Positions 15,337 through 63,582 of a stretch of DNA of 64,000 nt are shown here, one piece after another (position 1 is the first letter of the stretch; each line of letters opens with the position of its first letter). The stretch covers positions 1 to 64,000 of the forward strand of contig JAJYSV010000018.1 in NCBI GenBank assembly GCA_021793405.1, in the 5' to 3' direction. The translations under genes and the position numbers were made by a program. The DNA comes from Acidobacteriota bacterium (GTDB lineage: Bacteria > Acidobacteriota > Terriglobia > Terriglobales > Acidobacteriaceae). Under the pieces are notes generated by a model. The model did not search any database. It was given only the letters and a program-made list of their open reading frames with translations, and had not been told where the DNA came from.

Positions 15337-15339
15337 CTT

Positions 15340-15768: not shown

Positions 15769-15838
15769 AAAAGCATGGTATCACGGGTGGCATCATAGAT
15801 TTATCTTCGTATTGGTTTTGCTGGGAGATGGAAGTGAC

Positions 15839-15981: not shown

Positions 15982-16213
15982 AAGTGGTTTGTCCAGTCAT
16001 TTTCAGGATTTATGGCAGTTTGTTTTCATCGGATGAAAAATACACCTGCGCCAATTGTTCCCTAAACTACCTTCTACGACGTTCCAGTCCCTTCGGCTCC
16101 TTCAGCGTCTCTCTACTCCAGCGTGCCCTGTCGATAGGCTCGAAAAGTCGCAATATGTGGTAGTAGACATCCGTTCGTGCCCACCTCATTGTGGTTGTAG
16201 GGGTGTGCGAATT

Positions 16214-16474: not shown

Positions 16475-16477
16475 GTC

Positions 16478-17659
16478 ATGTTTGTTCGGACACGGTATCA
16501 ATACGGAAGTATACGACTGAGGAAGCGCGAACGCGGTCCTGACGTGTGGGAGTTCCGCTATTACGAAACGGACTCTCAGGGTAAGCGAAAGCGGCAGAGT
16601 GTGATCCTTGGGGACCGCAATCTGTACGCGACGGAGACCCAGGCACGGAAGGCCACGCAAGCTCTTCTTCTTGGACTCAACGGAGAATCTCCGCGTGCGG
16701 AAGTGGAAGCAGCATCGTTCGGAACCTTGCTCGACCGCTATATCGAGCAGGAGCTTTCGGAACGCTACTCAACCCGGAAATCGCATCTGTCGAACATCCG
16801 GGTTCACATCCGTCCGCGTTGGGGAGAATACCCCGTGGACAAACTGAAGCCGATGGCGATGGAACAATGGCTGCGCGATTTGCCGCTGGCCCCAAAGTCA
16901 AAGTCTCATGTACGGGGAATCATGCACCTGGTCTTCAAATGCGCGGAGCGGTGGGGCATTATCGAACTCGGTAAGAATCCCGTCTCTCTGGTGCGCGTGA
17001 AGAATGCAAGCAAGCGGCTGAAGCGGCCACGGGTTCTCGAAGTGAACCAGTTCTTTGAACTGCTCAAGTATCTTGGCGAACCATTTCGCACGATGGTATT
17101 GGTCGCCCAGCGTTTGGGGCTTCGAGTCAGCGAGATTCTGGGTCCGCAATGGGGTGATTTCGATTTTGAAAATCGTTTTGTGCTGGTGCAGCGCAGCGTG
17201 GTGGGCGGTAGGGTAGACGAGGTGAAGACGGAATACTCGAAGGATGATGTTCCGCTGGATGCTCGCTTGGCAGAAGTGCTGTTGCAATGGCGCTCTGCTT
17301 CCATCTTTCCGCGAGACGCGGATTGGCTCTTTGCCAATCCTGTCACAGGAAAACCGTACCACCAGGAAAGCCTACAGAAGTCGCAGATCAAACGTGCTGC
17401 GAAGCTTGCCGGGTTAGGGGAAGACATCGGGTGGCATACGTTCCGCCACACGTATCGTTCCTGGCTCGATGAGACAGGCGCGCCGATGAAGGTGCAACAG
17501 GAACTGATGCGTCATGCTTCGATCCAGACGACGATGAATGTCTATGGGCGAGCCATGACGGAAACCAAACGCCGGGCAAACAGTCAGGTGGTGGGACTGG
17601 TGTTCGGCCCAAACTCGCAGGATTTGTCCGTGAATGCGGGCACTGCGACCGTCCAGTAA
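16478..17659 (+). CDS. int: tyrosine integrase, complete
   Basis: Catalyses site-specific integration and excision. The 393-residue protein has an AP2-like N-terminal arm-binding region (1-65), a core-binding domain (80-165), and a catalytic domain with Arg216 (GLRVSEI), His320 and Arg323 (HTFRHT), His346 (RHASIQ) and the nucleophile Tyr356 (MNVYGR). The start has GGAGA at 8 bases. Its 3' end lies 75 bases from a tRNA-fMet 3' fragment, the usual geometry of an integrase next to its attachment site. It is intact, so integration/excision could be active. Confidence 0.93.
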   Translation: MFVRTRYQYGSIRLRKRERGPDVWEFRYYETDSQGKRKRQSVILGDRNLYATETQARKATQALLLGLNGESPRAEVEAASFGTLLDRYIEQELSERYSTRKSHLSNIRVHIRPRWGEYPVDKLKPMAMEQWLRDLPLAPKSKSHVRGIMHLVFKCAERWGIIELGKNPVSLVRVKNASKRLKRPRVLEVNQFFELLKYLGEPFRTMVLVAQRLGLRVSEILGPQWGDFDFENRFVLVQRSVVGGRVDEVKTEYSKDDVPLDARLAEVLLQWRSASIFPRDADWLFANPVTGKPYHQESLQKSQIKRAAKLAGLGEDIGWHTFRHTYRSWLDETGAPMKVQQELMRHASIQTTMNVYGRAMTETKRRANSQVVGLVFGPNSQDLSVNAGTATVQ

Positions 17660-17734
17660 ATTGCAGTTCGTTCCTAATGGGGGATAACGGGGACTTGTTG
17701 GAAGCGGCCAATCTTTGTAAATTATTGATTGAAT

Positions 17735-17780
17735 TGGTTGCGGGGGCTGGATTTGAACCAGCGACCTTTGGGTTATGAGC
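17735..17780 (-). other. tRNA-fMet 3' fragment, probable attachment-site core
   Basis: Read on the minus strand the 46 bases run from GCTCATAACCC (anticodon loop with CAU) through the T arm (GCTGG-TTCAAAT-CCAGC) to CCCCGCA-A-CCA, the hallmark 3' end of initiator tRNA. The 5' half of the tRNA is absent: the adjoining bases do not fit the D arm or acceptor. The fragment is thus an att core, not a tRNA gene. It lies just downstream of int. Confidence 0.75.
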
Positions 17781-49661: not shown

Positions 49662-49928
49662 CTAGCTCGCGGCTTTGATTTCTTCGCGGAGAATGCGGCG
49701 GAGCGTGTCTTCGAGCTTTGGCGCTTTGCCCTCCACATGCTGGCGCAATGCATCATTGATCAATGTCTGATAGCCTGCCGAACCGCCAGACCTCTCGGCC
49801 TCTTTCAAGAAGTGGTCCACCATGTCGTCATCGATACGGATGGTGATTCGCGTCTTTCCCCGCTGTTCCGGCTCCGGGGTCGTGATCCGGCCACGCTTGC
49901 CTTTGCTGAAATCGTATTGCTGTTTCAT
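49662..49928 (-). CDS. brnA: BrnA-family antitoxin
   Basis: The 88-residue RHH protein has TRITIRIDDDMVDHFLKEAE, GGSAGYQTLINDALRQHVEG, the BrnA pattern with an N-terminal KGKRGRI segment. It overlaps the BrnT gene by four bases. It would bind BrnT and the operon's operator. Since the BrnT N-terminus is altered, the natural promoter may have been lost. Confidence 0.88.
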   Translation of the reverse strand: MKQQYDFSKGKRGRITTPEPEQRGKTRITIRIDDDMVDHFLKEAERSGGSAGYQTLINDALRQHVEGKAPKLEDTLRRILREEIKAAS

Positions 49929-50182
49929 CGCTCCTCCTCGTACTGCATGCGTTCGTGCGGCTCTGCCAATCGCGCTGAGATGATGCGAATCTTTCTCCCG
50001 CGATAGCTGTAGACGACAACCAGCGCTCGTCCCCTCGCGCCCGAACCAATGGACACGAAGCGCTGTTCGTTGGGACCGGAGACATCATCCGTGATGGTGA
50101 TGGCGTAATCGTCCTCAAAGACCGGAAGGGACTCAGAAAAGTGGACACAGTGCTTTTTATAGTTGGCTTCGGCCTTCCGCAT
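49925..50182 (-). CDS. brnT: BrnT-family toxin, N-terminus replaced
   Basis: The 85-residue RelE-superfamily RNase has KAEANYKKHCVHFSES, RFVSIGSGARGRALVVVYSY and RIISARLAEPHERMQYEEE, the BrnT core. Family members begin with (V/I)xFEWDPxK before KAEAN; here the reading starts MRKAEAN and the bases before it belong to a fragment of the trbB gene. About 8-10 residues of the first strand are missing, so activity is doubtful. No good ribosome site is seen before 50182. Confidence 0.78.
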   Translation of the reverse strand: MRKAEANYKKHCVHFSESLPVFEDDYAITITDDVSGPNEQRFVSIGSGARGRALVVVYSYRGRKIRIISARLAEPHERMQYEEER

Positions 50183-50235
50183 CGGCCTCGGCGGACAGCA
50201 GAGACGAAATGCCGCGCAGGAGCAACGTGCGCAGC
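50175..50235 (-). pseudogene. duplicated trbB fragment
   Basis: About 59 bases match trbB at 51112-51170 with 7 differences (about 88% identity). On the minus strand it encodes LRTLLLRGISSLLSAEADA, the counterpart of LRTLLMRGTSSLLPAEADA in the intact gene. It joins directly to the BrnT coding sequence. It is a scar of a second, diverged trbB copy, not a recent duplicate. Confidence 0.75.
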
Positions 50236-50248
50236 TGGCACTGACGTG

Positions 50249-50662
50249 TCAGAGTGAGAGAACATTGAGGCCGGGGATGCGCTGGAAGTGTTTCACATTC
50301 AATGAAACAACGGCGAACCCTAAGTACAGAGCTGTGGCCCCGATGAGGAGATCCTCAAAGGCGATGATGTTCCCGACTGCGGTCTGTTCGCCTTCGATAC
50401 GTCCGGCGAGTTGGGAGATGGCAAGCGAAACCGGATGCACGATCATGTCCCGGTACAGTTCTTCCGAGAATGCTCGCCGCCGTTCACGGTCTACATCGGT
50501 TTTTGCCCGATAGATGCCATGCGTCAGTTCGACGACGCTGACAGCGGAGAGCGCGGCTTCAGTCTCGTTGTGCGCGGCCTGCACACGCTGGAGAACCTGT
50601 TTCACCGTTTCCCTTCGCCGTTCGCCTGCGATCAGAATACTGGTATCGAGGATCAATCCCAT
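50249..50662 (-). CDS. vapC: VapC-type PIN toxin
   Basis: The 137-residue PIN RNase has MGLILDTSILIAGERR (Asp6), SVVELTHGIYRA (Glu), IIAFEDLLIGATALYLG (Asp) and VSLNVKHFQRIPGL, close to canonical VapC (the usual TxNxxDF becomes SLNVKHF). It overlaps the Phd-type antitoxin gene by 10 bases, downstream of it. Confidence 0.88.
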   Translation of the reverse strand: MGLILDTSILIAGERRRETVKQVLQRVQAAHNETEAALSAVSVVELTHGIYRAKTDVDRERRRAFSEELYRDMIVHPVSLAISQLAGRIEGEQTAVGNIIAFEDLLIGATALYLGFAVVSLNVKHFQRIPGLNVLSL

Positions 50663-50940
50663 GTGGAGAGTTCACGAGGCTTGCGATTGCGAATGATTTC
50701 TTCCAAATCAGAGGCAAAGCTCGCGTCCATGACTGGCTCATACCCCAGCTCTTGGGTATGTTTTTCGGCCAGAGCAATAGATTCTGAAAGAAGACGGCCG
50801 CGAGGCTCCAAGGCAGAGCGCAGAATCGCCACCGGAGAGTCTTCATTCTCGATGACGACTTCAACACCCGCACGCACGCGATCCATAACGGCAGCGAAGT
50901 TGCGGGTTGCTTCGGCCTCCGAAATGTGGATGGTTGCCAT
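50653..50940 (-). CDS. Phd/YefM-type antitoxin partner of VapC
   Basis: The 95-residue protein has MATIHISEAEATRNFAAVMD, VRAGVEVVIENEDSPVAILR, the Phd_YefM fold, and a C-terminal SFASDLEEIIRNRKPRELS toxin-binding tail. The ATG at 50940 was chosen. A short palindrome (ATCAT-GACT-ATGAT, 50942-50955) sits right before the start and may be part of the operator. It lies 84 bases after trbB. Confidence 0.85.
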   Translation of the reverse strand: MATIHISEAEATRNFAAVMDRVRAGVEVVIENEDSPVAILRSALEPRGRLLSESIALAEKHTQELGYEPVMDASFASDLEEIIRNRKPRELSTWD

Positions 50941-51024
50941 AATCATGACTATGATACTCCTGCTCGATTTTTATGAATCAGCGAAAGAATTATTTGAGGC
51001 CTAATTCCTGTTGGCTGAATCGTC

Positions 51025-51927
51025 CTATGATGTCACTTCCAGGATTTCCCGGACGTGCCGCATCCCATCTTTACGGTCGATATGGATGACGCAGTGGATG
51101 GACGTGTGGATTTCCGCATCGGCTTCGGCTGGCAGCAGAGACGAAGTACCGCGCATGAGCAATGTGCGCAATCGCAGCAAAGCGCCTTGCGCACTGCTGG
51201 CATGGATGGTGGCCAGCGTTCCCCGATGTCCGGTGTTCATGGAATCGAGCAGCGTGCGGGCCTCGGTCCCACGGATTTCGCCGAGGATGATCCTGTCGGG
51301 CCGGTGACGCAGTGCGGCCTTGAGCAGGTCATCGAAGGTGACGGGATGTTTGTGCGTATCCGTCTGGGCCTCCGCCGAGACCACATGCGGCTTGCGGATG
51401 TGCAGCTCTGCCGTATCTTCAATAATCAGAATGCGCTCATTGTTTGGGATGGCATCGGCCAAAACATTGAGGAGCGTGGTCTTCCCGGTAGAGGTTCCGC
51501 CGGAGATGAGGAGATTGTCGCCACGTCGGACCGCGTAGGCCAGTATCGCAGCCTGTTCCGCCGTCAGCATCTTGCGTTCGATCAAATCATCCATCGAGAA
51601 GTTCCGCGAAGTGAACTTGCGGATGGTCACCAGCGGCTGCGGATGGACAATGGGCGGGATGGTCGCAGCCAGACGGCTGCCATCGGGCAGACGCAGGTTC
51701 AGGATCGGCGAATCGGCGTCGAGTTTTTTGCCGAAGCGGTTGGCGATCACTTCCAGGCCCGTCAACAGCGCGCCGTCCGCGAAGAGAATCCCCGACAGGA
51801 GCTGGATGGCCCCGTCCTCCTCGATCCAGACCGAAGAATCGGGGTTGATCATGATCTCGCTGACGGTTGCGGCCTTAAGCAAATGCTGGATCGGCTTCAG
51901 GAACGGCAGGATGATTTCAAAGCTCAC
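51025..51927 (-). CDS. trbB: VirB11/TrbB secretion ATPase
   Basis: Hexameric ATPase that powers pilus assembly and DNA transfer at the inner membrane. The 300-residue protein has an N-terminal PAS-like domain (ATVSEIMINPDSSVWIEEDG), Walker A GGTSTGKT (143-150), Asp box IIEDTAELHI, Walker B RIILGEIRG and the His box HRGTLATIHASSA. The start GTG 51927 overlaps the T4CP stop (GTGA) with GGAGGG upstream. It is the last gene of the conjugation train. Confidence 0.93.
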   Translation of the reverse strand: MSFEIILPFLKPIQHLLKAATVSEIMINPDSSVWIEEDGAIQLLSGILFADGALLTGLEVIANRFGKKLDADSPILNLRLPDGSRLAATIPPIVHPQPLVTIRKFTSRNFSMDDLIERKMLTAEQAAILAYAVRRGDNLLISGGTSTGKTTLLNVLADAIPNNERILIIEDTAELHIRKPHVVSAEAQTDTHKHPVTFDDLLKAALRHRPDRIILGEIRGTEARTLLDSMNTGHRGTLATIHASSAQGALLRLRTLLMRGTSSLLPAEADAEIHTSIHCVIHIDRKDGMRHVREILEVTS

Positions 51928-53960
51928 GGTTCTACCCTCCCTGGATCGAAGCCGATTCGCTCCTGCGCGAACCATGTCATGGTGACGGGCAGGAAATCGG
52001 GCTTCAGGTAGCAGAAGGTGGGAGGCAAGGGGCTGACGCCATTGAAGGCGACGACCACGGCCTGTGCGTTCTTCAGATCGAAAAAGGTCTTTTCCTCAAA
52101 CAGCGGCTCCTTATGCTTCTGGTACTGCTTGGAAGCGGAGACAGAGCCTTTGCTGGACGAGGTGCGTCCACTCAGCCAGCCGACATTGGCGTTGGCTGAG
52201 GACTCGGAGACGGTATAGCTGATCCGGGTCCTGTCCGCTTTGCCACATAGTTCCGAGGCATAGCGTGCCGTCTCGGGATCGGAGGTCGTCAGGAATACTT
52301 TCGTGCGGAATGCCTGGAGCAAGGTCTTCACCCCTTCATTGGGCAGGGCCTCGGTCAGGCTCGATATACTCTGCGACGCGACGATGGGGATGCACTTCGG
52401 CTGGCGGGAAATGGACAGGAACCGTTCATCCCCGGTGGGATTGTCGCCGCCAACGGTGGCGAAGTTCTGGTACTCGTCGCAGATAAAAACCGTTGGACGG
52501 AAGTGTTTGTCCGGTTCGGCATCCATCTTCGGAATGCGCAGTTGCACGGCCCGCTGATAGTCGATCTTCATCATGGTGCCGATGGTTTTGGCCAGCGCTG
52601 GGTTCAGAACTACAGGGAAGTTCAGGCCGACCACTTTGCCGGTCTCGATCAGCTCCTCGAAGGGCGGCAGGACGCGACCGCGAGGATCGGCAGCACAAGG
52701 CCTGCCCTCATAGAGTTCCTTGGGTGGGCAGAAGACACGGCGCACTTGCGGATCGGTCTCAAACAACGAGAGGAAGACAACGATGCCCTGGATGATGGAG
52801 GTCTTGACTTCGGAGCGGAAGAACTTCCAGTGCTCCCAGTACCAATACTGGATGCTGTCGTAGCGGTCGCGCTGTTCCGGTCGATACGGCTTACGAGTGA
52901 AGACATCGAAGACTGCGGAGGTCTCCTCGATCAGCAACCGTTCCAGTTCCTCCGTCCTGGCCACGAGATACAGTTCCTCATCCTCCCGCCATTCGCATCC
53001 CAGAGGAGACAGGAGCGATTGACATACGCCATACGCCTCTTTGCCGATACCGATGTAGCTGGTGGTGCTGAAGCGCGCGCCCACTTCGATCAACATCTCT
53101 TCGAGCCTGCCCGCGCTGATGACGGTGCGGAAGAGATCGACCATCGTGAGGTATCCATCGCGGATGCGGTGCAGCAAAATCACGTACCGCATAAGGTCCG
53201 TGTAAGACTGCTGCCAGAATGGTTCCTTGCCCTTGCCCCAGATGGAAGTGATGATGGATGCGATGTTGAATGCCTGCGCGTAAGGATCGAGCGAGTTGTT
53301 GAGCGGGTTATAGCGGATGTCGCCGTCGAGTGAGACCTCGATGTAATCCCGCGCGCGTCCGCACCATTCGAGGATGCGCTGAAGCTGACGGCAGAGGTCG
53401 CCCTTGACCTCCAGCACAATGCCGGAGAGTTTCCGTGCGGGGTCGTTCGCACGATACGCAAACAACTGACGCATAGCAGGCAGGATCAGTCCATAAGTTT
53501 TACCGGAGCCAATGGAGCCGAAAGACGCGATGCCGGTGTAGAGGCCGCGCTCCGGGACCGAAAGCCACTGCGGGGCCGGGCTGGGCTTCGGCACAAGCTG
53601 GCGATGGACTTCGCCCAGCACCAGAGATAAGGAGGTACGGGTACGAGGATCGGGATACAGAGGCAGCGCTCCAGCGGCCTGCTCTGACTCCGTCCTATAT
53701 AGATGGACGTACAGGAGCGAAAAGATCATGGAGAAAACAAGAAATGGCGTGCTGTACAAAAAGAAGTCATAGCTCCAGAGCAGCCCATGAAAGATCGGAG
53801 GCCGCTGGTAGGCGATCAGGCGCAGCAAGGGATTTGTTTGGTTAATCGGGTAGAGACTACTCAAGACGATGCCGCAAGCCGCGCTCAATCCCAGCGAAAG
53901 CAGGGTGCGGTATTCGACCAGCGGACGGATGAAATTCCGAACGTATACTTGAAAGCTCAT
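51924..53960 (-). CDS. traG: type IV coupling protein (VirD4/TraG)
   Basis: Brings the relaxase-DNA complex to the secretion channel. The 678-residue protein has two N-terminal membrane segments (about 20-37 and 66-87), Walker A GSIGSGKT (148-155), LDGDIRYNPLN, and Walker B VFICDEYQNF with the following GDERFLSISRQPKCIPIVAS block. Between residues 320 and 400 lies a longer all-alpha region than in most VirD4 proteins. The ribosome site GGAGG lies upstream. It is preceded by a small Ala/Pro-tailed protein gene by 17 bases. Confidence 0.92.
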   Translation of the reverse strand: MSFQVYVRNFIRPLVEYRTLLSLGLSAACGIVLSSLYPINQTNPLLRLIAYQRPPIFHGLLWSYDFFLYSTPFLVFSMIFSLLYVHLYRTESEQAAGALPLYPDPRTRTSLSLVLGEVHRQLVPKPSPAPQWLSVPERGLYTGIASFGSIGSGKTYGLILPAMRQLFAYRANDPARKLSGIVLEVKGDLCRQLQRILEWCGRARDYIEVSLDGDIRYNPLNNSLDPYAQAFNIASIITSIWGKGKEPFWQQSYTDLMRYVILLHRIRDGYLTMVDLFRTVISAGRLEEMLIEVGARFSTTSYIGIGKEAYGVCQSLLSPLGCEWREDEELYLVARTEELERLLIEETSAVFDVFTRKPYRPEQRDRYDSIQYWYWEHWKFFRSEVKTSIIQGIVVFLSLFETDPQVRRVFCPPKELYEGRPCAADPRGRVLPPFEELIETGKVVGLNFPVVLNPALAKTIGTMMKIDYQRAVQLRIPKMDAEPDKHFRPTVFICDEYQNFATVGGDNPTGDERFLSISRQPKCIPIVASQSISSLTEALPNEGVKTLLQAFRTKVFLTTSDPETARYASELCGKADRTRISYTVSESSANANVGWLSGRTSSSKGSVSASKQYQKHKEPLFEEKTFFDLKNAQAVVVAFNGVSPLPPTFCYLKPDFLPVTMTWFAQERIGFDPGRVEP

Positions 53961-53977: not shown

Positions 53978-54295
53978 TCAGGCGTGGGCCGTGCTACTGG
54001 TGGACGATGGTTCGGATTTTGGCGCGGCTTCGATGGCAGGCTTGATCGGCGTCGGCTGTACCTTGGAGGGGCCGACAGATTGCGTGGCCTTCGCTGCAGG
54101 GCTGGCCTTGTACTTCTGGAAGTCCTCTTCCTGCGTGAGAGCGAAACGCAGCAGTTCATTGACGACATAATGCGTTTCGTTGTTCGACCACTGCGCCAAC
54201 AACTCGATGTTCTCGGCGATGGTCTGGTCGATGGAGGATTGCAGCTTCGCGCGCCGAATCCTGCTGACACCGTGTTCCAGTTTGAGTTTGCTCAT
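53978..54295 (-). CDS. small accessory protein of the transfer operon
   Basis: The 105-residue protein has a short helical N-terminal half (SKLKLEHGVSRIRRAKLQSS, then IDQTIAENIELLAQWSNNET and HYVVNELLRFALTQEEDF), which could be an RHH-like DNA-binding fold, and a disordered Ala/Pro/Ser-rich C-terminus. Directly upstream of the T4CP and directly downstream of three inverted repeats, so a role at oriT (relaxosome or regulator) is a reasonable guess. Confidence 0.6.
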   Translation of the reverse strand: MSKLKLEHGVSRIRRAKLQSSIDQTIAENIELLAQWSNNETHYVVNELLRFALTQEEDFQKYKASPAAKATQSVGPSKVQPTPIKPAIEAAPKSEPSSTSSTAHA

Positions 54296-54359
54296 ACGAT
54301 TCTCCTGTCGATCAAATTGCGATCTGTTGTGTATCTGTCCCGGATGCGATGAGGATCAG

Positions 54360-54514
54360 CGCTGGATTACGGCACTGATCTGGTTTGTAATCCAGCGCAT
54401 ATCCAGAAAATATCTGCGCCCGATATTTTCTGGATATGTTCCAGAGCCGAGGCGGGAGCGACCAGCGCGGTGCAAACCGACGCGGCAACCCGGCAGGGGC
54501 GTCGCTCCCGCCTC
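54360..54514. repeat. three consecutive perfect inverted repeats (oriT/regulatory candidate)
   Basis: IR1 54360-54399: 12-bp arms GCGCTGGATTAC. IR2 54400-54438: 16-bp arms ATATCCAGAAAATATC with a 7-base loop. IR3 54450-54514: 14-bp arms GAGGCGGGAGCGAC with a 37-base loop. They fill the 234-base gap between the accessory gene at 54530 and the small protein gene ahead of the T4CP. Such stacked repeats are common at transfer origins and at attenuators. Confidence 0.75.
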
Positions 54515-54529
54515 AGCACATACTTTCAC

Positions 54530-55609
54530 TTATTCACCTCCTGTCATAAGTTGTTGTTTTTCAGGGACTTTCTTCTCGAAGAGGGGCACCTCACCAGTCC
54601 GGTGCCTAGACCCAAGCTCCGGTTTCTCCATGCGCTCATATTTGAGCTGGTAGAGCGGATAACGGTACGGCATGGCAATGGGGATGAACTTGGCACGCGG
54701 CCCCTGCTGCTGAAACCGCTGCCGAATTTTCTCGACACTGGTGCTGCCGATCTTCCAGGCCGCGCACAGGGCCTGATGTTCGAGCGTGGTGTAGATGGTT
54801 TCTCCTTCATGCAGAAGCTCAAGATCGCGCAGCGTGACAGACCGGTTCTGCATGCCGGTGTTCTCACGGGCGCGAAGATAATCAAGAAAGTGGTCGACAC
54901 CTCGCGGCGTCATCGGCGTAACGCCCAGCGCCCGCGTCTGCGGGTAGATGGCGGCAAAGACCTTTCCGGCACGCTCGAAGTTCCGGTCTGAGTCCGCGAG
55001 GTACAGCAGCTCGAAGCCGGGGAGCGCGGCGAAGACAGCGCGATACCGGCGCAGGAAGTTCTCGAAGCCGCGGGTCGAAAGCGCACCTTCGTCGAAAAAT
55101 GTAAAGTGAATCGACTGTTGCTCGCCGATCAGGATGGGAAACTCTTCCAGGAAAAAGTGTGCGCTTCCGGCGCGGGACTGCGGAAGGACCGTTGCACTCA
55201 GGCCAAGAGTGTGTGTGAAGAATCGGACCTTCGCGTCTGTCGAATCGAGGATGGAATCGTCCAAATGGTCGAGGACGAAGTCCAAGACCATGAGGCGGTA
55301 CTTGATCTGTGCGTCCCCTTTCAGACGGCGGTGCTGCGAAGCAGCCAGCCCGACTGCCGTGTACACCTCTTTGGAAGCCAGGTGATAAACAAAGCGGGCC
55401 TGCCCGCAGGCGATGCTTTGGAGGTGACCGAGCGCAGCGGCCCTGCGCAGGAGTTGCTCGGCGATGGCCCCGCGCTCCCGGCGGACGAAGCGTCCATACT
55501 GACGGCGCAAAAAGAAACCGGAGTGCAGGGCGACCAGGTACAGGAACGCGGCCTCGCGTTCCGTGTAGCCCACGGACTCCAAGACCGGAATGGGATCGTA
55601 GGGTAGCAT
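54530..55609 (-). CDS. transfer-region protein with winged-helix-like N-terminus
   Basis: The 359-residue soluble protein has an N-terminal part (VGYTEREAAFLYLVALHSGF, FLRRQYGRFVRRERG) that looks like a winged helix of the replication-relaxation type, followed by a mixed domain I cannot name (FFDEGALSTRGFENFLRRYR, FELLYLADSDRNFERAGKVF). The start overlaps the stop of the previous gene (TGATG). It is probably DNA-binding and linked to transfer. Unknown function. Confidence 0.6.
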   Translation of the reverse strand: MLPYDPIPVLESVGYTEREAAFLYLVALHSGFFLRRQYGRFVRRERGAIAEQLLRRAAALGHLQSIACGQARFVYHLASKEVYTAVGLAASQHRRLKGDAQIKYRLMVLDFVLDHLDDSILDSTDAKVRFFTHTLGLSATVLPQSRAGSAHFFLEEFPILIGEQQSIHFTFFDEGALSTRGFENFLRRYRAVFAALPGFELLYLADSDRNFERAGKVFAAIYPQTRALGVTPMTPRGVDHFLDYLRARENTGMQNRSVTLRDLELLHEGETIYTTLEHQALCAAWKIGSTSVEKIRQRFQQQGPRAKFIPIAMPYRYPLYQLKYERMEKPELGSRHRTGEVPLFEKKVPEKQQLMTGGE

Positions 55610-56682
55610 CAGAGGTCGAGAATGTCCTGCATCAGGTCGTGGTCGTCTTCGATCTTTGCGGTAAGAGTCGCGCGGTCCGACGTGGATGCGTAGTTGCGGA
55701 AACCGGCCTGGGCTTTCGAGCGCAGATGACCGGCGTGATACGCGGCGGTCAAAACTTCGATGTCTTCATGGCCGGTGCGTGAACCCTGGTCGGGGTCCTG
55801 GTTGTTGTCCAGCTTGCGGTCGAACTCGATCCGCGCATCGGGAATCTGGATGTGACCATTGACAAAGGGCAGTTCCAGCCGCTCGGCAACCTGCTGTTTG
55901 ATCTCGGCGATGTCTCGTTTGGGGTCGGCCTTGCGCCCGGCGTAAATCGCCTTCTGCACCTGGGCCTTGATCTCGAAATCGAGCTTCACCCGCAGGTTTG
56001 AGCCACCCTTTTCCGCGATCTTCTCTGCCTCTTTGCGATAGGCGCGATAGATCAGCGAGTCATGCTCCAGCTCACGCGGCTTGACGAATCCGGCATAGAC
56101 GGTCTGTTCCTTCGGGACCTCGCCGCTCGTTCGCAGCCACGCGCGACCGTCTTTGGTCAGCGTGGCGACTTCGACACGTTCGATGGTGCGGCGTTTTCCA
56201 TCGCGGCGCAGATTGATATGGCGGGTGGCGACCAGACCCTTCGAGCGCAGATAGCGCAGGTCCTCCTCCAGCTTGCGGCCTTTGCCGTCATATATGGTGT
56301 CGGCCAGGTCGGCGGTGCGGACAACACGGAAGCGGCCCAGCTCCAGCATGCTCCTGCGTTCTTCCGGCCTGAGTTGCAAATCGATGGTCTGCGATGGAAT
56401 GCGGTTCCGTTGCGTGCGCCTGGGGTCCGAGACCTCGCGCGGGTCTCGGACTTTGTGACGGTGCGCCGGAACTTCACGTCCTTGGCGCGGCGGCGCGGAG
56501 TTTGTGCGGCGCGGCGGTTCGTGATTCAGGCGGTACTGCCCGGCACGTTCCGCCAGCGTCTGCAAGCGCCGCAGAATCGGATGCTGCTCCGGTTCCTTCG
56601 CGACGCTTCTCTCGTCCGGCCTCGGCACGCCGAGCGCGATCTCGCGACGACGCGGCAACTCCTGCGGAATATCGAATCTCAT
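55609..56682 (-). CDS. replication-relaxation-like winged-helix protein
   Basis: The 357-residue protein has a disordered, Arg/Pro-rich first 100 residues, then a winged helix (about 112-165: MLELGRFRVVRTADLADTIY, LEEDLRYLRSKGLVATRHI) with a wing-like RRDGKRRTIERVEVATLT, and a C-terminal ELEHDSLIYRAYRKEAEKIA, FEIKAQVQKAIYAGR region that resembles MobC/replication-relaxation proteins with a nuclease-like tail. It may assist strand separation at the transfer or replication origin. The start overlaps the previous stop (ATGA). Confidence 0.65.
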   Translation of the reverse strand: MRFDIPQELPRRREIALGVPRPDERSVAKEPEQHPILRRLQTLAERAGQYRLNHEPPRRTNSAPPRQGREVPAHRHKVRDPREVSDPRRTQRNRIPSQTIDLQLRPEERRSMLELGRFRVVRTADLADTIYDGKGRKLEEDLRYLRSKGLVATRHINLRRDGKRRTIERVEVATLTKDGRAWLRTSGEVPKEQTVYAGFVKPRELEHDSLIYRAYRKEAEKIAEKGGSNLRVKLDFEIKAQVQKAIYAGRKADPKRDIAEIKQQVAERLELPFVNGHIQIPDARIEFDRKLDNNQDPDQGSRTGHEDIEVLTAAYHAGHLRSKAQAGFRNYASTSDRATLTAKIEDDHDLMQDILDL

Positions 56683-56972
56683 ACACCCTCTCTGTCATCA
56701 CCACACTCTGCAAGGTCAGGCGAGAATTCAATGGAGGTTTGAGTGGCCGCTGCCTTTGCGACAGGTCTTTTCGTGCGTTCACCGGCAGAAGCGGGTGAGG
56801 GCGTTTCTTCAGAAACTGGGGATGCCTTCGGCTTCTGGCCGACGACGCGACGCACGTCGTAGTCGGCCACGCGGGTGAATTTGTTCATTTCCTTTTCAGC
56901 AGCTTCGCGCAGCTTGCGAATTTTGGCGACAAGGTCGGGCGTGCGCTCCATAAATTGGTCTTCATGCAGCAT
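56679..56972 (-). CDS. small basic/helical protein in the transfer operon
   Basis: The 97-residue protein has a helical N-terminus (FMERTPDLVAKIRKLREAAE, KEMNKFTRVADYDV) and a Pro/Ala/Lys-rich tail. The start ATG 56972 has AGGAGG at 10 bases. It overlaps the next gene and follows the small membrane protein by 2 bases. No known domain. Confidence 0.6.
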   Translation of the reverse strand: MLHEDQFMERTPDLVAKIRKLREAAEKEMNKFTRVADYDVRRVVGQKPKASPVSEETPSPASAGERTKRPVAKAAATQTSIEFSPDLAECGDDREGV

Positions 56973-56974
56973 GG

Positions 56975-57283
56975 CTACCGTTCCTCCTCTTCTTCCCCAA
57001 AGCGGGAAAGGATTTCTTCCGACAACTCGCTCTGTCCGGTGTGGATTTCCCGGTCGAGGTGCCGGAGCTTGCGGCCTGTGTCGCGCAGGAAAAACTTGCG
57101 TTCGATCCAGATGGTCAGGCCGAGGATGTTGGCGAAGAGCAGGGCGCAGTACATGGCGATCGGCTGCAAGTACGCATGCACGATCAAACTGCGCCAAGGC
57201 ACAAGGAAGTGCATCTGACTCATCAGCCAGAAGCCAAGCGCGAGAAAGATCAGCGTGGCGACGAAGACGGCATTCGCAATCAT
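56975..57283 (-). CDS. small membrane protein, two TM segments
   Basis: The 102-residue protein has TM segments at about 3-20 (ANAVFVATLIFLALGFWLM) and 40-58 (PIAMYCALLFANILGLTIWI), then a charged C-terminal coiled part (HLDREIHTGQSELSEEILSR, EEEE). Part of the transfer operon; possibly a pilus or pore accessory. The ATG 57283 was preferred over 57358 since the upstream extension crosses the hairpin. Confidence 0.6.
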   Translation of the reverse strand: MIANAVFVATLIFLALGFWLMSQMHFLVPWRSLIVHAYLQPIAMYCALLFANILGLTIWIERKFFLRDTGRKLRHLDREIHTGQSELSEEILSRFGEEEEER

Positions 57284-57375: not shown

Positions 57376-57771
57376 TTAGCCGTCCTCACCTTCATCCACG
57401 CCGATGGCTGGAACTTCCAGCCTGCGTATGGTGAGCGCGTGGACTTCATAGGTGGACTGCGTGACCGGGAACCGCTCGCCTGCAACCGTGATGCTGCGGT
57501 CGTAATCCGAGCGGTGCAACTCTCCCGTGACCTCGATGTACGCGCCCTGCTTCATGCCGCGCGTGAAGCCGCACAGGAACGGGCCGGGACAAATGATCCG
57601 GTGCCATTCGGTGCGCGGAATCCACTCGCAGGTCTGCTTCTTCCAGGTGCCGGACGCGATGCCCAGCACCAGGACCGCGAAGGAATCATGCCGGATATGG
57701 TCCGAGGTGGGAACCTCGGCATTTCTGGCGAGGAACCCGCGCAAAGTTACGCTGTTTATGAAGATGTTCAT
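57376..57771 (-). CDS. SSB-like OB-fold protein, copy 1
   Basis: The 131-residue protein has MNIFINSVTLRGFLARNAEV, DSFAVLVLGI, WKKQTCEWIPRTEWHRIICP and AYIEVTGELHRSDYD, the OB-fold of single-stranded DNA-binding proteins, with no acidic C-terminal DxxFPF tail. It is diverged from its neighbour at 57803. It may coat the transferred strand. The start ATG 57771 fits the first OB strand. Confidence 0.82.
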   Translation of the reverse strand: MNIFINSVTLRGFLARNAEVPTSDHIRHDSFAVLVLGIASGTWKKQTCEWIPRTEWHRIICPGPFLCGFTRGMKQGAYIEVTGELHRSDYDRSITVAGERFPVTQSTYEVHALTIRRLEVPAIGVDEGEDG

Positions 57772-57802
57772 AGACGCACCTCCCGTGGGAGGACAACGCC
57801 GC

Positions 57803-58210
57803 TTACGCGGCATCGTCCTCCGTGATGGAATCGGCATCGAGGTTCTCGCCCGCCTGGGGCTGCGCCAGCTTTTTGACGATGCTGGCGCGTATCTCCCAAC
57901 CCCGGCGCTTGACCGTGGCCTTCTTTTTGCCTTCGCCGACTTCGGCATCGAATTCGGTCGAGCGCAACTCGCCTTCAATCTCGACGTAGTCGCCCTTCTT
58001 CAGGTTCTTCGCGTAGTCGGCCGGCTTGGCGAAACAGACGATGCGGTGCCATTCGGTGTGGTTCACCCACTGCTTGGTCTGCTTGTCCTTGTAGCCGGAC
58101 TTGGTGGCCAGCGACAGGACCACGAGGACGTTCTGCTGTTTGGTTGCATAGCTCTGGGCGTCCTTGCCGATGTAGCCTTTCAGCGTGACGTTGTTTCCGT
58201 AGAGTGCCAT
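57803..58210 (-). CDS. ssb: SSB-like OB-fold protein, copy 2
   Basis: The 135-residue protein has MALYGNNVTLKGYIGKDAQS, TKSGYKDKQTKQWVNHTEWH, RIVCFAKPADYAKNLKKGDY and VEIEGELRSTEFD, canonical SSB OB-fold. The C-terminus ends SITEDDAA: acidic but without the usual terminal Phe, so binding to host repair enzymes may be weak. RBS AGGAG before the ATG. First of two tandem ssb-like genes. Confidence 0.9.
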   Translation of the reverse strand: MALYGNNVTLKGYIGKDAQSYATKQQNVLVVLSLATKSGYKDKQTKQWVNHTEWHRIVCFAKPADYAKNLKKGDYVEIEGELRSTEFDAEVGEGKKKATVKRRGWEIRASIVKKLAQPQAGENLDADSITEDDAA

Positions 58211-58794
58211 TGTTTTTCTCCTGTTTGTATTTGCCCGGATTGCCTCCGGTACACTCTTGCACGAAGTGACGTGAGGTGCCCCGCTCCCAAGGCCGAGATG
58301 TGCTTTCTGCGGAGGCTCCGGCAAGAAATTTCCCGCGTGTTCTTGCTTTCTGCGCGGGAAATTTGTTGCTGGAAACCCAGACCCAAAGGGCGTTCGCCGT
58401 GGCGAACGAAGCAGAACATCGAAGCGCCGCCGGGCGCGGGACAAGCACCGAGCGAGTGACCGGAGGTGAGCAGGGAAAATACAGGAGAGTTGGCACTCTA
58501 TGGAAACACCTGTCTGGAGGGCATCGAACGAAGGATGCCCATGCCACCGGCCAGCAGTGGAACCATATTCCGTAGCCTGCCACTTTTCCGGCTGCAAAAG
58601 CAGGGAGTGGATGGGCCACACTTTCCGCATCTCCGCATGGCCTTCGCCCTGCCATGCGAAAGACCTGTTTCCGGGCGATGGAGTGGAAGGTGGGATGCAC
58701 AACGACCGCTCTCGGTCGGCATAGCAGAAGGCGCCAAGCTCCCTTCGCGGTTGGGAGATACGCGCCTGCATCTTCCGAATTTGCGCATGCCCGT
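58211..58794. other. 584-base intergenic region with two palindromes
   Basis: It contains AAATTTCCCGCG / CGCGGGAAATTT (12-bp arms, 58326-58337 and 58353-58364) and CGTTCGCC-GT-GGCGAACG (58391-58408). Several open frames cross on both strands without ribosome sites or recognisable motifs, so I call no gene. It should hold the promoter of the ssb-led operon and possibly a single-strand initiation or transfer site. Confidence 0.5.
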
Positions 58795-60351
58795 TCACGG
58801 CAACCTCCGCATGTCGGTCTCACGGAGGATGGCATCGACCGCTGCGATGCGTTCCCCGATCCAGCGCATGACCGGCACCGCCATCGAATTGCCAAGCGCC
58901 CTGTAGCGTGGGCCATCGGCAGCCGACTTGCCGCGATACTCCACCAGCGTGTAATCGTCGGGAAATCCCTGCAGGCGTTCGCACTCTCGCGGAGTCAAAC
59001 GTCGCACGGCCATCTCGGAATGCAAAATATTCGGCGGCCCATTACTCGTGTCGGAGCTATCGAGTCGCCGCGGCGACCCGTAGGAAGCAGTCAGCGGAGC
59101 GGCAACGGCTATTTGCCCACCACCGTTCGCATGACTCGTGTCATGACCCATCCCGCGCAGCGTCGGCGCAATGCCGCCAACATCGGCCCCATAATCCTTT
59201 GCGGAGAACGCAACATAGCTGTTGCTACTGCCGCCGGATGCGGCGCGAATACTTGCCATTGGCGACGGTTCCGGGATCGATCCGTCCTCGCGTCCACGCA
59301 GGTTGAAGGCCACTGCCTGGCTGTTTGTCTGTTCCAACGTGTGCGCGATGCCATCCGAGAATCCATGCCCGTTCGATTGCGTGTGTGCCGTGCAGATGGC
59401 AATCGGGATGAGAGGGCAGCCACGCCCAGTACCATCTTCGCTGGCATCGAATCCATCGGCGGAGAGAGAATGCGCGATCAGCGTTTGCGTCTCGAAGTCC
59501 TGTCGTCCCATACCACCGGCATTCAGGCAGTGGGATATTTCTTCTGTTGATGAAAGGACACCAACTCCTAATTGATTGCGGACGAAGCCGTTTTTGCATC
59601 CGGCGTCGATAGTTGGAGCGGTATCTGTGAAGCAACCGCCAGCAGGGCCGACCGCAACGCCCACGGCAGTTCCTTGCCGCGTTTCTCGGCGCGGCGGAGG
59701 ATGCCCCGACAGGCACGACCGCTCAAGTAGTACCGCTGCGGCAGCTCGCCAGTTTCCAAGATGTCCGACAACGAAGACGCGACGCCGTCGCTGGGGTACT
59801 CCGAAATGTTGAGCATCCAAGACTCGCCATGCGAGGCCATACCCGAGTTCGACCAGCATCCTGAGGAAGGTTCCAAACGTCCGTCCTCCGTCGATCGACA
59901 GGACGCCGGGGACGTTCTCCCATACCAGCCATAAGGGCCGGAGCCGATCAGCAAGTCGAGCAAACTCGAGGGTGAGGTTGCCACGCGCATCATCCAGTCC
60001 CGCTCGCTTTCCGGCGATGGAGAAAGACTGGCAAGGTGTGCCTCCGGCCAGAAGGTCGATTGTTCCGACATCGTTCGCTCCTATGCGAGTGAAGTCTCCG
60101 GCGTTGATTACGGTGCCATCGGCAGGCAATGCGATGACGTTGCGAATCGCAGCCGCACGCTGCTTCGCTTCCTGATGCGACTCTGCTGTATTTGGGCTGG
60201 GCATGTGCAGCGGACGCGATGCGCGATAGCGCGAGCGCAGCAACCAGCAACAAAATGGGTCGATCTCGGCAAATGCGACGGGGGTCCAGCCGAGCGGCTG
60301 CCAAGCCACAGTCACGGCCTCGATGCCCGAACACACGGAGAGATATTTCAT
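58795..60351 (-). CDS. DNA (cytosine-5) methyltransferase
   Basis: Methylates cytosine in a short DNA target, as an orphan enzyme on mobile DNA. The 518-residue C5-MTase has motif I YLSVCSGIEAVTVAWQPLG, motif IV GGTPCQSFSIAGKR (catalytic Cys), motif VI WENVPGV, motif VIII QRRRRVF and the C-terminal CERLQGFPDDYTLV plus RYRALGNSMAVPVMRWIG (IX/X). The long region between VIII and IX (about residues 210-430) contains Gly/Ser-rich, repeating APT(I/L)-type segments, as in phage-type Dcm. No matching restriction enzyme gene is adjacent. It may protect the element in new hosts. Confidence 0.9.
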   Translation of the reverse strand: MKYLSVCSGIEAVTVAWQPLGWTPVAFAEIDPFCCWLLRSRYRASRPLHMPSPNTAESHQEAKQRAAAIRNVIALPADGTVINAGDFTRIGANDVGTIDLLAGGTPCQSFSIAGKRAGLDDARGNLTLEFARLADRLRPLWLVWENVPGVLSIDGGRTFGTFLRMLVELGYGLAWRVLDAQHFGVPQRRRRVFVVGHLGNWRAAAAVLLERSCLSGHPPPRRETRQGTAVGVAVGPAGGCFTDTAPTIDAGCKNGFVRNQLGVGVLSSTEEISHCLNAGGMGRQDFETQTLIAHSLSADGFDASEDGTGRGCPLIPIAICTAHTQSNGHGFSDGIAHTLEQTNSQAVAFNLRGREDGSIPEPSPMASIRAASGGSSNSYVAFSAKDYGADVGGIAPTLRGMGHDTSHANGGGQIAVAAPLTASYGSPRRLDSSDTSNGPPNILHSEMAVRRLTPRECERLQGFPDDYTLVEYRGKSAADGPRYRALGNSMAVPVMRWIGERIAAVDAILRETDMRRLP

Positions 60352-60431
60352 GCGCACAGGCCATGCCTTCCTGAGCACGCAATGTCCAGTAGTCCTTTGA
60401 CGGAATAGTCTCGATATGGAATACTTGGGGC

Positions 60432-61204: not shown

Positions 61205-61882
61205 TCAATTCCCGAATGCCTGGTCTTCGCGGCAGTAGATGATGACGAGGCCAAGTGGGTTGGTCAGCAGCATCTGGTTGGGCACTTCGTCGCGGAAGCC
61301 GTAGACGACATTCGCCGTCCATCGTTCGCGGTGTTGTTCGTCGATATTGCCGGGAGAGCGGAAGATTTTGTCGAACTCGATCTCGGCCCGATAGGGCGGC
61401 TGGCGCAGGTCTTCGAGGACCACTGAATGGATTTCGATATCGATGTTGGGTTGCGAGGGATCGAGCAGGAACGATTCGAGCGTCTTCGCTTTCTGAAAGC
61501 GCTGGATGGTGGCGCTCTGCAACTGGTTCGAGAAGAAGCTCAATGACTCGGCAAAATCGCGCTGCAATGTCGCATGGTTACGCCCGTAGTACAACTCGGC
61601 CCATTGCGCGAGGTAATACTTGCTGACGCGGTCGATGGGAATCTTGGCAAAGTCGTCGTACTGCATCACCTGCCCGCGCCCGGTATCCGAGACCGAGATG
61701 ATGAGCGGCTTGAGCCGCAAAGCAGCGGTCTGGGTGCGATAGAAGAGCGCCAGCAGAGTGAGCGCGACGACCGAAAGCACCAGCAGGGCCAGCTTGAGAT
61801 AGGTGTTGGTCACAACCGGCTCGGCGTAGAGTTCGAGATACTTTTGTCCGGCATCGGTAATTGGAAAATCATTCTTTGTCAT
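61205..61882 (-). CDS. VirB8/TrbF-like T4SS channel protein
   Basis: Inner-membrane bitopic scaffold of the T4SS. The 225-residue protein has an N-terminal cytoplasmic segment, one TM helix at about 32-52 (LALLVLSVVALTLLALF) and a periplasmic NTF2-like domain (from about 70: YYLAQWAELYYGRNHATLQR, FFSNQLQSATIQRFQ, AEIEFDKIFRS, NVVYGFRDEVPNQML). The start ATG 61882 fits this layout. It follows the VirB6 gene by 5 bases. Confidence 0.82.
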   Translation of the reverse strand: MTKNDFPITDAGQKYLELYAEPVVTNTYLKLALLVLSVVALTLLALFYRTQTAALRLKPLIISVSDTGRGQVMQYDDFAKIPIDRVSKYYLAQWAELYYGRNHATLQRDFAESLSFFSNQLQSATIQRFQKAKTLESFLLDPSQPNIDIEIHSVVLEDLRQPPYRAEIEFDKIFRSPGNIDEQHRERWTANVVYGFRDEVPNQMLLTNPLGLVIIYCREDQAFGN

Positions 61883-61887
61883 ATTCA

Positions 61888-62709
61888 CTATCCCAGTGGG
61901 TTGACCCACGTACCGGTGCGTCCGCTCAGGATGGCCCCGGTCAGCTCCGGTATCTTGAACAGCCCGAAGATGCAGACAAACAGCGTCACGATCAGCGCGG
62001 GCAGGACGGTAAATGCATTCGAGATACTGATGGGGCCGATGACGCCAAGCAAGGCCAGCAATACCTTGGCAAAGATGAAGATGAAGGCACTGGCGATGAC
62101 CTGATAAAAGCTGAAGCCGAGGAATGCCTTGAACCATCCCCAGAAAGGGAAATCCAACTTCGGCACGATGAAGAATGGAATGAAGATCGGCCCAATCAAG
62201 ACACACACCGCGCTGGCAACTAGCCCATAGGCAATCACGGCGAAGGCCACGGCTTGCATTGCGGCCAGCGCAATCGCGATCACGAGAAACGTCAGGGTCT
62301 CGTGAAAATCGAACTCGCCGGGAGGCTGGCCCAGTTGTTCCTCTGCATGCGTGACCGCATCGGCAATCACCTGCGTCTGGTTCGATTCGATCTGTCCAGA
62401 GAGCTGCAAGGTTTCCTGTGTGATGAGGTCGCTGAAGCTGTATCCCATGCCCGGAATAGGCGCGGAATAGTACGTCAGCATGCCCAGGCCGAACGAGATG
62501 GCCAGCAGCAGGTTGGCGAACTGGCCGAAGTGGAAGCTGCCGTAAAAGCCCTGCGCGGTCGCAAGCGCGTTCTGGATGCCAAACCAGGCGATCATGATGA
62601 CGGCGAGGCCGCGAAAGAGATCGAGGCCCATCGCCTGGATCGCGGGACTGTTGGTCGCGAGCAACTGGCTGATGGCCTGGCCGAGAAAGGTAAAAGGATT
62701 CTGTTCCAT
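61888..62709 (-). CDS. VirB6/TrbL-like membrane channel protein
   Basis: The 273-residue protein has about six hydrophobic segments and an N-terminal periplasmic part, the VirB6/TrbL layout: GLDLFRGLAVIMIAWFGIQN, a hydrophilic central loop (IESNQTQVIADAVTHAEEQL), LTFLVIAIALAAMQAVAFAV, YGLVASAVCVLIGPIFIPFF. Polytopic core of the translocation pore. It lies between trbJ and virB8. Confidence 0.85.
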   Translation of the reverse strand: MEQNPFTFLGQAISQLLATNSPAIQAMGLDLFRGLAVIMIAWFGIQNALATAQGFYGSFHFGQFANLLLAISFGLGMLTYYSAPIPGMGYSFSDLITQETLQLSGQIESNQTQVIADAVTHAEEQLGQPPGEFDFHETLTFLVIAIALAAMQAVAFAVIAYGLVASAVCVLIGPIFIPFFIVPKLDFPFWGWFKAFLGFSFYQVIASAFIFIFAKVLLALLGVIGPISISNAFTVLPALIVTLFVCIFGLFKIPELTGAILSGRTGTWVNPLG

Positions 62710-62726
62710 AGTCTGTCCTTCTTGGT

Positions 62727-63557
62727 TCAGTGTCCTGTCGGGCTGAGCGAGATGGAGTGCATGGCATCGCTCACGCCGCCGGTGATCTGCTGCATGGTGT
62801 TGGGAAAGTTCTGCTGAAAGTAAATCGCCTCATTGATGGCCCGGTTCTGGGCATCGATCTGCTGTTTCTGGGCGACGAGTTGCTGCTGAACCGAAGCGGC
62901 CAGGATTTGGTTGGTGTCCTGCTGCGAGTGGATTTGCAGGAGCGTTGCGGTATTGATCTTGCCCAGCACAGCCATCTCGCTCTGCTGTGTTGGGTCGGAC
63001 GAATAGGTGTCGGCATCGAGGTTCGCCAGTTTCTGCGACAGCGCCTCCGAATTCGACCGAATAGTGCCGAGCGTCGCAAGCGTGCTGGTGGTTGTCCCTT
63101 GCGCCAGTTCGGACGTTGCGTACTGGTTCTGGATCGTAGCCTGAGTCTGTGCATCCTGTGCTGCAAGACTGCCTCCGGGATAACTCTGCACTTGCACCAC
63201 GGCATCGCGATATCCTTGCGCTGCCTGCGAAGGAGAGCCGATATCCAGCGCATTCACCCAGGCTGAGGTATTGCCATAGGTGTTGGGAGCGGACAGGTTC
63301 GTCCATTGCGAGGCTTGCGACTGATAGCGCGCGGCGAGATTCTGCGGCATCCGCGACATCTGATAGGCGAGGTTGTAAGCCGAGATGATCTGGTCGCGGG
63401 TCTCGACCGCTGTGGTGTACATCTGCTGGAGTTGGCCGAACTCCTGCAATGCCGTCGCGTAATTCGAGGCATCGAATACGGCAAACTGCGCGTGCGCCGC
63501 AGGCGCGAGCAGGGTGGCAAGCGAGAAAACAAGACAGAACATTCTGGCTGACTTCAT
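62727..63557 (-). CDS. VirB5/TrbJ-like pilus-tip protein
   Basis: The 276-residue protein has a signal peptide (about 1-24: MFCLVFSLATLLAPAAHAQF), followed by VFDASNYATALQEFGQLQQM and long alpha-helical, Gln/Ala/Thr-rich segments (ALQEFGQLQQMYTTAVETRD, AINEAIYFQQNFPNTM), the TrbJ pattern. It is a minor pilin or pilus-assembly factor in the periplasm. The ATG 63557 was chosen over upstream starts since the signal peptide begins there and GGAAG precedes it. Confidence 0.85.
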   Translation of the reverse strand: MKSARMFCLVFSLATLLAPAAHAQFAVFDASNYATALQEFGQLQQMYTTAVETRDQIISAYNLAYQMSRMPQNLAARYQSQASQWTNLSAPNTYGNTSAWVNALDIGSPSQAAQGYRDAVVQVQSYPGGSLAAQDAQTQATIQNQYATSELAQGTTTSTLATLGTIRSNSEALSQKLANLDADTYSSDPTQQSEMAVLGKINTATLLQIHSQQDTNQILAASVQQQLVAQKQQIDAQNRAINEAIYFQQNFPNTMQQITGGVSDAMHSISLSPTGH

Positions 63558-63582
63558 GACAATCTTCCTTTTCTGCACTCCG

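Follow-up and report, generated by a model that had tools for sequence, protein, structure and literature searches.

A covarying three-way-junction hairpin beside transfer genes of acidobacterial mobile elements is a probable oriT

The interval 54296-54529 of the window, which is the whole 64,000-nucleotide stretch of acidobacterial DNA analysed here, is probably the oriT of an integrative conjugative element. This reading draws on the position of the interval among transfer genes, a hairpin whose paired bases covary among relatives, an array of phased sites next to the hairpin and the presence of the same hairpin in elements that carry no T4SS. A first-pass annotation had named the interval as an oriT candidate on account of three stacked inverted repeats. 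The candidate stands, but the three repeats have not been conserved together, and the MobF relaxase of the window is disfavoured as its partner.

The genes around the interval are located on the - strand in the order SSB-like genes, a small ORF, wH357, wH359, the repeats, an RHH-like gene, a type IV coupling protein (T4CP) gene and a VirB11/TrbB-type ATPase gene. An oriT in general should have an inverted-repeat hairpin kept in cis near transfer genes, and such a hairpin is found here. The features are:

51025-51975, - strand: VirB11/TrbB-type ATPase (Pfam PF00437; NCBIfam TIGR02782 below cut-off)
51924-53960, - strand: T4CP of the TraG/VirD4 type (Pfam PF12696, PF10412, PF02534)
53978-54295, - strand: RHH-like protein, 105 aa, kept adjoining the hairpin (sequence pattern; no RHH family match)
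54296-54445, - strand: array of GATC-, GATAC- and GGTAC-like half-sites at multiples of ~11 bp, putatively RHH-binding
54359-54370/54387-54398, - strand: IR1, 12-bp perfect arms, a lineage-specific palindrome in the array
54398-54414/54422-54438, - strand: IR2, 17-bp perfect arms and a 7-nt loop, a lineage-specific palindrome in the half-site array
54449-54462/54501-54514, - strand: IR3, 14-bp perfect arms (repeat search)
54443-54520, - strand: three-way-junction hairpin of IR3, the proposed oriT core (repeats, folding, covariation, covariance model)
54530-55609, - strand: wH359, 359 aa, N-terminal winged helix, upstream neighbour of the hairpin and candidate DNA-processing protein
55609-56682, - strand: wH357, 357 aa, winged helix and C-terminal alpha/beta domain, candidate nickase/relaxase (model, conserved pattern)
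56679-57035, - strand: p118, a small conserved ORF of the same gene string
57376-57978, - strand: second SSB-like ORF (no Pfam match; assigned from its position and its matches with the SSB ORF in relatives)
57803-58288, - strand: SSB (PF00436)
61205-63575, - strand: genes of this T4SS resembling those for TrbF (weak NCBIfam match), TrbL and TrbJ

The 105-aa protein is taken to be RHH-like on its sequence pattern, and no library calls it so; the names TrbL and TrbJ are our assumption from gene order and look. The "coupling-protein genes" of the first-pass annotation correspond to one T4CP gene, the other being the ATPase gene by its Pfam match. Positions 49662-50946, beside the T4SS, encode a BrnA antitoxin identified by Pfam; a BrnT-like neighbour of it and a PIN/antitoxin-like pair were recognised there by eye. 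A C5 cytosine DNA methyltransferase gene (58795-60378) is situated within the T4SS gene string and is common to two of four relatives compared. Between the two mobile regions of the window there is a long run of genes resembling those for polysaccharide export, sugar metabolism and glycosyl transfer (19725-47430, by eye). A second T4SS of the same type, with a hairpin of its own, occurs elsewhere in the genome, G000, at C72:11400-23177 (locus L098).

The window contains eight perfect inverted repeats with arms of at least 12 bp and loops of up to 60, compared with a mean of 0.2 in 20 dinucleotide shuffles. Three of the eight are stacked within a single 156-bp stretch, 54359-54514, so the stacked repeats described at the outset are present and exceed chance expectation. 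They occupy a gene-free interval, 54296-54529, that agrees with the 234-base intergenic space claimed. The arms had been given as 12, 16 and 14 bp; the first and the last are correct, and that of IR2 is 17 bp. IR1 and IR2 overlap by one base, and the stem of IR3 widens to 17 nt with one mismatch at 54446-54462/54501-54517. A 250-nt region folds as RNA of the - strand with a z of -5.7 and as single-stranded DNA of either strand with a z of -6.3; none of 200 shuffles folded as well in either case.

Comparison with related elements, which the first-pass annotation had proposed as a check, separates the three repeats. IR3 is kept, whereas IR1 and IR2 are lineage-specific. Palindromes like IR1 and IR2 appear in the same interval of few loci, L173 and L207 among them, when the two best repeats of each locus are considered; the one in the close relative L173 spans 16 bp with a 7-nt loop at a place comparable to that of IR2.

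In the window, the IR3 hairpin consists of the stem GGCGGGAGCGAC/GTCGCTCCCGCC and two small inner hairpins. Over 34 sequences it forms a three-way junction with a stem of ~20 bp and two inner hairpins. The upper stem, GGGAGCGACC/GGTCGCTCCC, is conserved in sequence, its core GGGAGCGA being nearly invariant, although in 7 of the 34 a G-C pair has become A-T. The lower stem, in contrast, is kept only as base pairs: its sequence is variable and mostly still paired. The alignment of 34 rows is confined to the main loop class. Both sides have changed in 16 of 27 pairs, and double-change cells number 134, compared with 41 ± 6 in shuffles (0 of 500 reach this value) and 14-35 in structures slid along the alignment. 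The shuffle ignores relatedness, whereas sliding the partners retains relatedness and nonetheless destroys the signal. Among 472 lower-stem cells (L227 and L230 omitted, repeated stems counted once), 434 are Watson-Crick, 13 G-T, 7 A-C and 18 other, with no clear preference for DNA over RNA or the reverse. More distant relatives keep the core and have the inner part replaced, and the distance between the hairpin arms varies widely. A rigid double-stranded dimer site is therefore unlikely, and selection seems to act on the paired structure instead. In L217, L220, L221 and L222 a further outer stem, for example GACGCGGC/GCCGCGTC, seems by eye to enclose the hairpin. L092, G002:C122 (L101) and G246 have the same stem ends around an inner part with ATAAAAGG or its like, and may represent another subfamily; the L101 hairpin is far from the RHH gene.

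The distribution of the hairpin was followed by several routes. A wH359 search of 100 related genomes found relatives in 14, and the third repeat lies behind wH359 in 14 of the 17 loci with a + strand match, nine - strand loci falling outside this count. The exact stem pattern has two copies in the genome of the window, both in the same gene order, and none with the reversed-pattern control; a dispersed REP-like repeat was rejected on this ground. Within the order, the pattern was detected in 49 of 397 genomes and the reversed control in 10 of 397. From 69 places, 60 were examined (all but the window, G246, G153, G333, G228, G361, G275, G366:C202 and G215:C405), and a T4CP gene follows downstream on the same strand at 49 of these, the other 11 having none in reach.

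Because that sample had been picked by the hairpin pattern itself, a second was assembled with the wH357 profile only; the two overlap in many loci and are not independent. It comprises 59 loci, 51 of which have wH357, wH359 and T4CP in reach. The eight uncounted are L195, L215, L216, L223 and L229 (short flanks, or no T4CP at contig ends), L206 and L210 (no T4CP in reach) and L231 (no sought gene downstream). Cultured soil bacteria are represented as well, since the locus is present in the records of Silvibacterium bohemicum S15, Granulicella sp. S156 and Edaphobacter lichenicola. A hairpin is located between wH357-wH359 and T4CP in all 51 loci, judged partly by eye. Its arms are perfect over at least 10 bp in 49, and by eye those of L182 and L227 contain a mismatch. 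With a looser core pattern, 46 of the 51 were matched, and the remaining five have the core with one base changed (by eye); in L227 and L230 this pattern picked a nearer partner than the long stem.

A covariance model gave seven matches in 486 kb, one per element searched, and scored the window hairpin, a member of its training set, at 69.4 bits. Among 299 genomes of the class, 19 have a match. Ten places were newly met in this way: L247-L252 show the usual gene order or most of it (T4CP is partial in L249, and at least L247 and L251 belong to the second sample), L256 retains part of wH359 and a piece of an integrase, and L253-L255 are described below. Some hairpins lie in decayed or unclear loci (L073, L089, L122). 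Spread by viruses was considered and rejected: the stem pattern gave four matches on viral contigs, by eye chance hits or coding stretches, a tblastn search with neighbour proteins yielded one weak integrase match there (E 0.001), and a scan for wH357 relatives among viral contigs returned none. The hairpin family is spread through a family of Acidobacteria and more sparsely through its class.

In loci with an RHH gene, the space between the hairpin and that gene is occupied by the half-site array, and IR1 and IR2 of the window are placed inside it. The window array has five sites with 8 of 9 spacings in phase. In 31 regions, 173 half-sites were counted, compared with 88.6 in shuffles, an excess that is partly circular because the words were picked from enriched 5-mers of the same regions. 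Phasing itself was no criterion in choosing the words, and 196 of 232 spacings in the 31 regions, or 158 of 184 in 26 thinned regions, fall at multiples of ~11 bp, against 28% in shuffles. Such a pattern is the trace expected of a DNA-binding protein aligned on one face of the helix, for which the RHH protein is the obvious candidate. No RHH gene was matched by the queries used in the more distant loci, L217-L230.

The array also bears on another use of the folded strand. The strong folding of single-stranded DNA on either strand, the SSB genes in the same string and the presence in mobile elements would fit a function other than nicking, such as a single-strand origin or a single-strand promoter active in the recipient after transfer. 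We consider such a role improbable, as the phased array and the link to wH357-wH359, RHH and T4CP would be better accommodated by a relaxosome.

The hairpin is also present in elements of the mobilizable type without a T4SS, as would be expected of an oriT; L078 and L253 are bounded by repeats, L081 is a further case, and L254 and L255 are weaker ones. L078 (in G227, identical to L206, Acidobacteriaceae bacterium TAA 166) extends over ~19.2 kb between two repeats that are 87% identical over 69 bp and resemble a tRNA 3' end, presumably that of a tRNA-Met gene; ARAGORN found no complete tRNA at these repeats. It carries an integrase, an HTH_17 protein, a 387-aa ORF, wH357, wH359, the hairpin and type III restriction genes, and queries for T4CP, VirB4, VirB11, Trb and RHH found no match between the repeats. 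Its array comprises 11 sites, and all 23 spacings counted are in phase. The array may have its own protein, because the 387-aa ORF starts in an RHH-like manner by eye; this ORF has no Pfam match. Just outside the repeats, the same genome encodes a different T4SS (VirB4 27% identical) and a MobF gene. L081 (in G175, identical to L210, Granulicella sp. dw_53) is a second wH357-wH359 locus without T4SS genes, with a hairpin and an array in which 30 of 36 spacings are in phase; no T4CP match was found in its genome, nor were the ends of the element found.

L253 is an 8.9-kb stretch bounded by perfect 48-bp repeats of a tRNA-Pro 3' end and contains the hairpin, an RHH-like protein (by eye), a tyrosine integrase and genes without matches to the transfer queries; array sites of the type seen in the integrative conjugative elements are absent from it, and no second oriT candidate stood out in it. 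L255 is a relative of L253 on a short contig, and in L254 a serine recombinase gene follows the hairpin. No wH357, wH359 or T4CP was found in these three. The model E-values per genome are 6.8e-5 for L253, 6.5e-4 for L255 and 6.0e-4 for L254, and since 299 genomes were searched, L254 and L255 could be chance matches by E-value alone. The hairpin as an integrase att site was rejected, its distance to the integrases being different from case to case and the boundary repeats lying at tRNA 3' ends.

These elements also weigh on the readings in which the hairpin acts as RNA. Attenuation of the T4CP operon, put forward in the first-pass annotation as the alternative to oriT, is disfavoured because integrase-bearing elements keep the hairpin without a T4CP. 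The broader proposal, that the hairpin works in a transcript as an attenuator, stabiliser or small RNA setting the expression of RHH and T4CP, draws on its location between co-oriented genes and its strong RNA folding, and SGI1 offers a parallel in that its mobilisation is reported, in the accessible text of the article, to need a self-encoded small RNA (PMC9299015). In addition, AGGAGGTG at the end of wH359 resembles a ribosome-binding site, and from the GTG start after it a frame extends across the hairpin of the window (54500-54545, by eye). The AGGAGGTG-GTG arrangement recurs in some relatives, but the frame differs among them (by eye). Against the proposal, the hairpin is kept in L081 and L078, which lack both a T4CP and any homologue of the RHH protein encoded in the window, it stands beside recombinase genes in L253 and the weaker matches L254 and L255, and the counts of G-T and A-C cells give RNA no clear favour. 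On reading the sequence, no T run directly follows either hairpin arm as it would in an intrinsic terminator, and Rfam 15 gave no match at gathering score in the window and none at E ≤1 in 54200-54650. We therefore judge an RNA element unlikely.

The half-sites in front of the RHH gene may instead form an operator region only, at which the RHH and winged-helix proteins would bind to control the operon. Autoregulation is common among RHH genes, and the RHH-like ORF carried elsewhere in the L078 element would suit such a role for its array. Yet the array persists in L078 and L081 although no RHH gene follows it, in the lower stem pairing is conserved and sequence is not, and the loop length is variable, so that regulation alone is a decidedly remote prospect.

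With oriT as the preferred reading, the partner relaxase has to be considered. The first-pass annotation had assumed "the relaxase" of the window, and the window does hold a MobF gene at 10461-13193 (PF08751 match at C99:10488-11360). The oriT-RHH-T4CP order furthermore recalls that of R388, in which oriT is followed by trwA and trwB, and on this reading the oriT would be R388-like and would belong to the MobF system of the window. To the right of the MobF gene, however, are an integrase gene (16478-17659) and then a tRNA-3'-end-like site (17736-17779), which in our reading resembles the 3' end of a tRNA-Met gene. As the MobF gene lies to the left of both, it is probably in another element, and 10461-17779 probably marks where a separate integrated element ends. 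The genome of the window has 12 MobF matches, some of them partial. A MobF match is missing from 12 of the 43 hairpin-pattern genomes searched (there are 49 in all), and 11 of these 12 have a hairpin-T4CP locus; a MobF gene may have been missed in some, the assemblies being 86-100% complete. PF08751 was detected in two of ten hairpin genomes (G000 and G145), whereas a MOBF-type oriT should have its cognate relaxase in the same element. Given the 11 hairpin-T4CP genomes without a MobF match, the hairpin probably has a partner other than the MobF protein of the window, and the MobF system as the owner of this oriT is very unlikely indeed.

The other families tested, MOBP, MOBQ and MOBH, gave no better partner. 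Above cut-off, MOBP (PF03432) was found in 0 of 16 hairpin genomes, MOBQ (PF03389) in 0 of 10 and MOBH (PF07514) in one of 10, G172, on a contig other than that of the hairpin. Below cut-off, PF03432 reached 24.1 of 24.6 bits in G111, on another contig, and PF07514 matched in G132 at C1:1722904, far from the hairpins. Genes common to four neighbourhoods of 72-80 kb were tabulated by blastp. A Pfam scan of 45 ORFs of contig G132:C5 at E ≤1e-6 showed no relaxase among the matches listed; it covered 43 of the 57 ORFs called there and, in addition, the frames of wH357 and RHH, with results for 25 of 26 families in its second set, and left out T4SS ORFs, some antisense ORFs and three ORFs spanning stretches.

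The two proteins encoded upstream of the hairpin are candidates for the missing function. The wH357 model (pLDDT 81.6) has a winged helix at residues ~97-193, which aligns with MarR-type proteins with Z scores of up to 11.1 over 85 residues, and a C-terminal alpha/beta domain with a conserved LDFExK..PDxR..DxE..K pattern. The PD-(D/E)xK fold has an alpha-beta-beta-beta-alpha-beta core carrying the PD..(D/E)xK residues, and the predicted order of elements in the C-terminal domain, together with conserved D282, D307/E309 and K323, recalls nucleases of this kind; tyrosine 315 is invariant. The fold searches with wH357 matched the winged helix, and the aligner list does not extend to the C-terminal domain. 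Replic_Relax (PF13814) gave no match to wH357 in the genome of the window at E ≤10. For wH359 (pLDDT 83.1), the winged helix is assigned by look and by weak fold matches; Foldseek returned no match at E ≤0.001, and weak FokI rows (E 0.19 and 0.66) are not relied on. Neither protein had a usable match in Pfam, NCBIfam, PHROGs or PDB sequences, and a search for homology between their C-terminal parts found none.

We propose that the hairpin at 54443-54520 would be recognised, as a cruciform or as a single-strand hairpin, by DNA-processing proteins, and that the phased array would be a binding site for the RHH protein of the adjacent gene and would help to dock the T4CP encoded after it. Nicking would most likely be carried out by wH357/wH359 or by a relaxase encoded elsewhere, because none of the relaxase families tested was found to accompany the element; a nic sequence could not be recognised. 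Nicking, RHH binding, the transfer strand and direction and the cutting protein are what we infer from the sequence. As a tentative extension, the hairpin may be the oriT of an acidobacterial conjugation lineage with an undescribed relaxase, in which wH357 and wH359 together would cut at or near the hairpin and the small elements with an integrase and an RHH-like protein would parasitise the system.

As in oriT regions of the R388 and F type, a hairpin and, putatively, accessory-protein sites directly precede the RHH and T4CP genes. Unlike those, the acidobacterial region has no linked MOBF relaxase, its hairpin is a large three-way junction with a variable inner part, and two winged-helix proteins are encoded upstream. 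In pLS20, the RHH-type proteins Aux1 and Aux2 bind oriT and are needed for transfer with a MOBL relaxase (PMC5675868, accessible text); an RHH-type protein at oriT, putative here, is the likeness, whereas no relaxase of the families tested (MOBF, MOBP, MOBQ and MOBH) was found to go with the acidobacterial hairpin. In pCW3, efficient transfer depends on the winged-helix protein TcpK, which binds tandem repeats of oriT (PMC6137059). In contrast, wH357 and wH359 are paired and matched no known family here, and TcpK is not described as a nuclease in the accessible part of that article. Islands of the SXT/MGIVflInd1 type carry an integrase and an ICE-related oriT and use the ICE relaxase in trans (PMC5704250, accessible text). 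L253 may be likened to them as a trans-mobilised element, judging from sequence alone, with a different hairpin and in another phylum.

Guglielmini et al. (2011), in the accessible part of their article, mention ICEs in acidobacteria and describe "MOBless" T4SS without a nearby known relaxase, with unknown relaxases as one of three explanations; they also give several grounds that many of these systems are not ICEs with unknown relaxases (PMC3158045). Here, in contrast, a candidate oriT and candidate processing proteins can be named, and the question of a MOBless relaxase becomes directly testable because a conserved oriT-like hairpin and two candidate proteins are at hand. If the tentative extension is true, a wH357/wH359 relaxase would explain part of the MOBless T4SS. 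Among the matches listed on acidobacterial conjugation, oriT and unusual relaxases, as represented by titles and the beginnings of abstracts with few subscription journals, the hairpin is undescribed. The kind of thing is an oriT; as far as seen, what is new is the family of hairpins, the lack of a known relaxase and the pair of candidate proteins. In dozens of mobile elements from soil Acidobacteria, a hairpin conserved next to the genes for DNA export is probably a DNA-transfer start site. It would serve as a marker for overlooked mobilizable elements in soil bacteria, and the hairpin system could yield a transfer tool for Acidobacteria.
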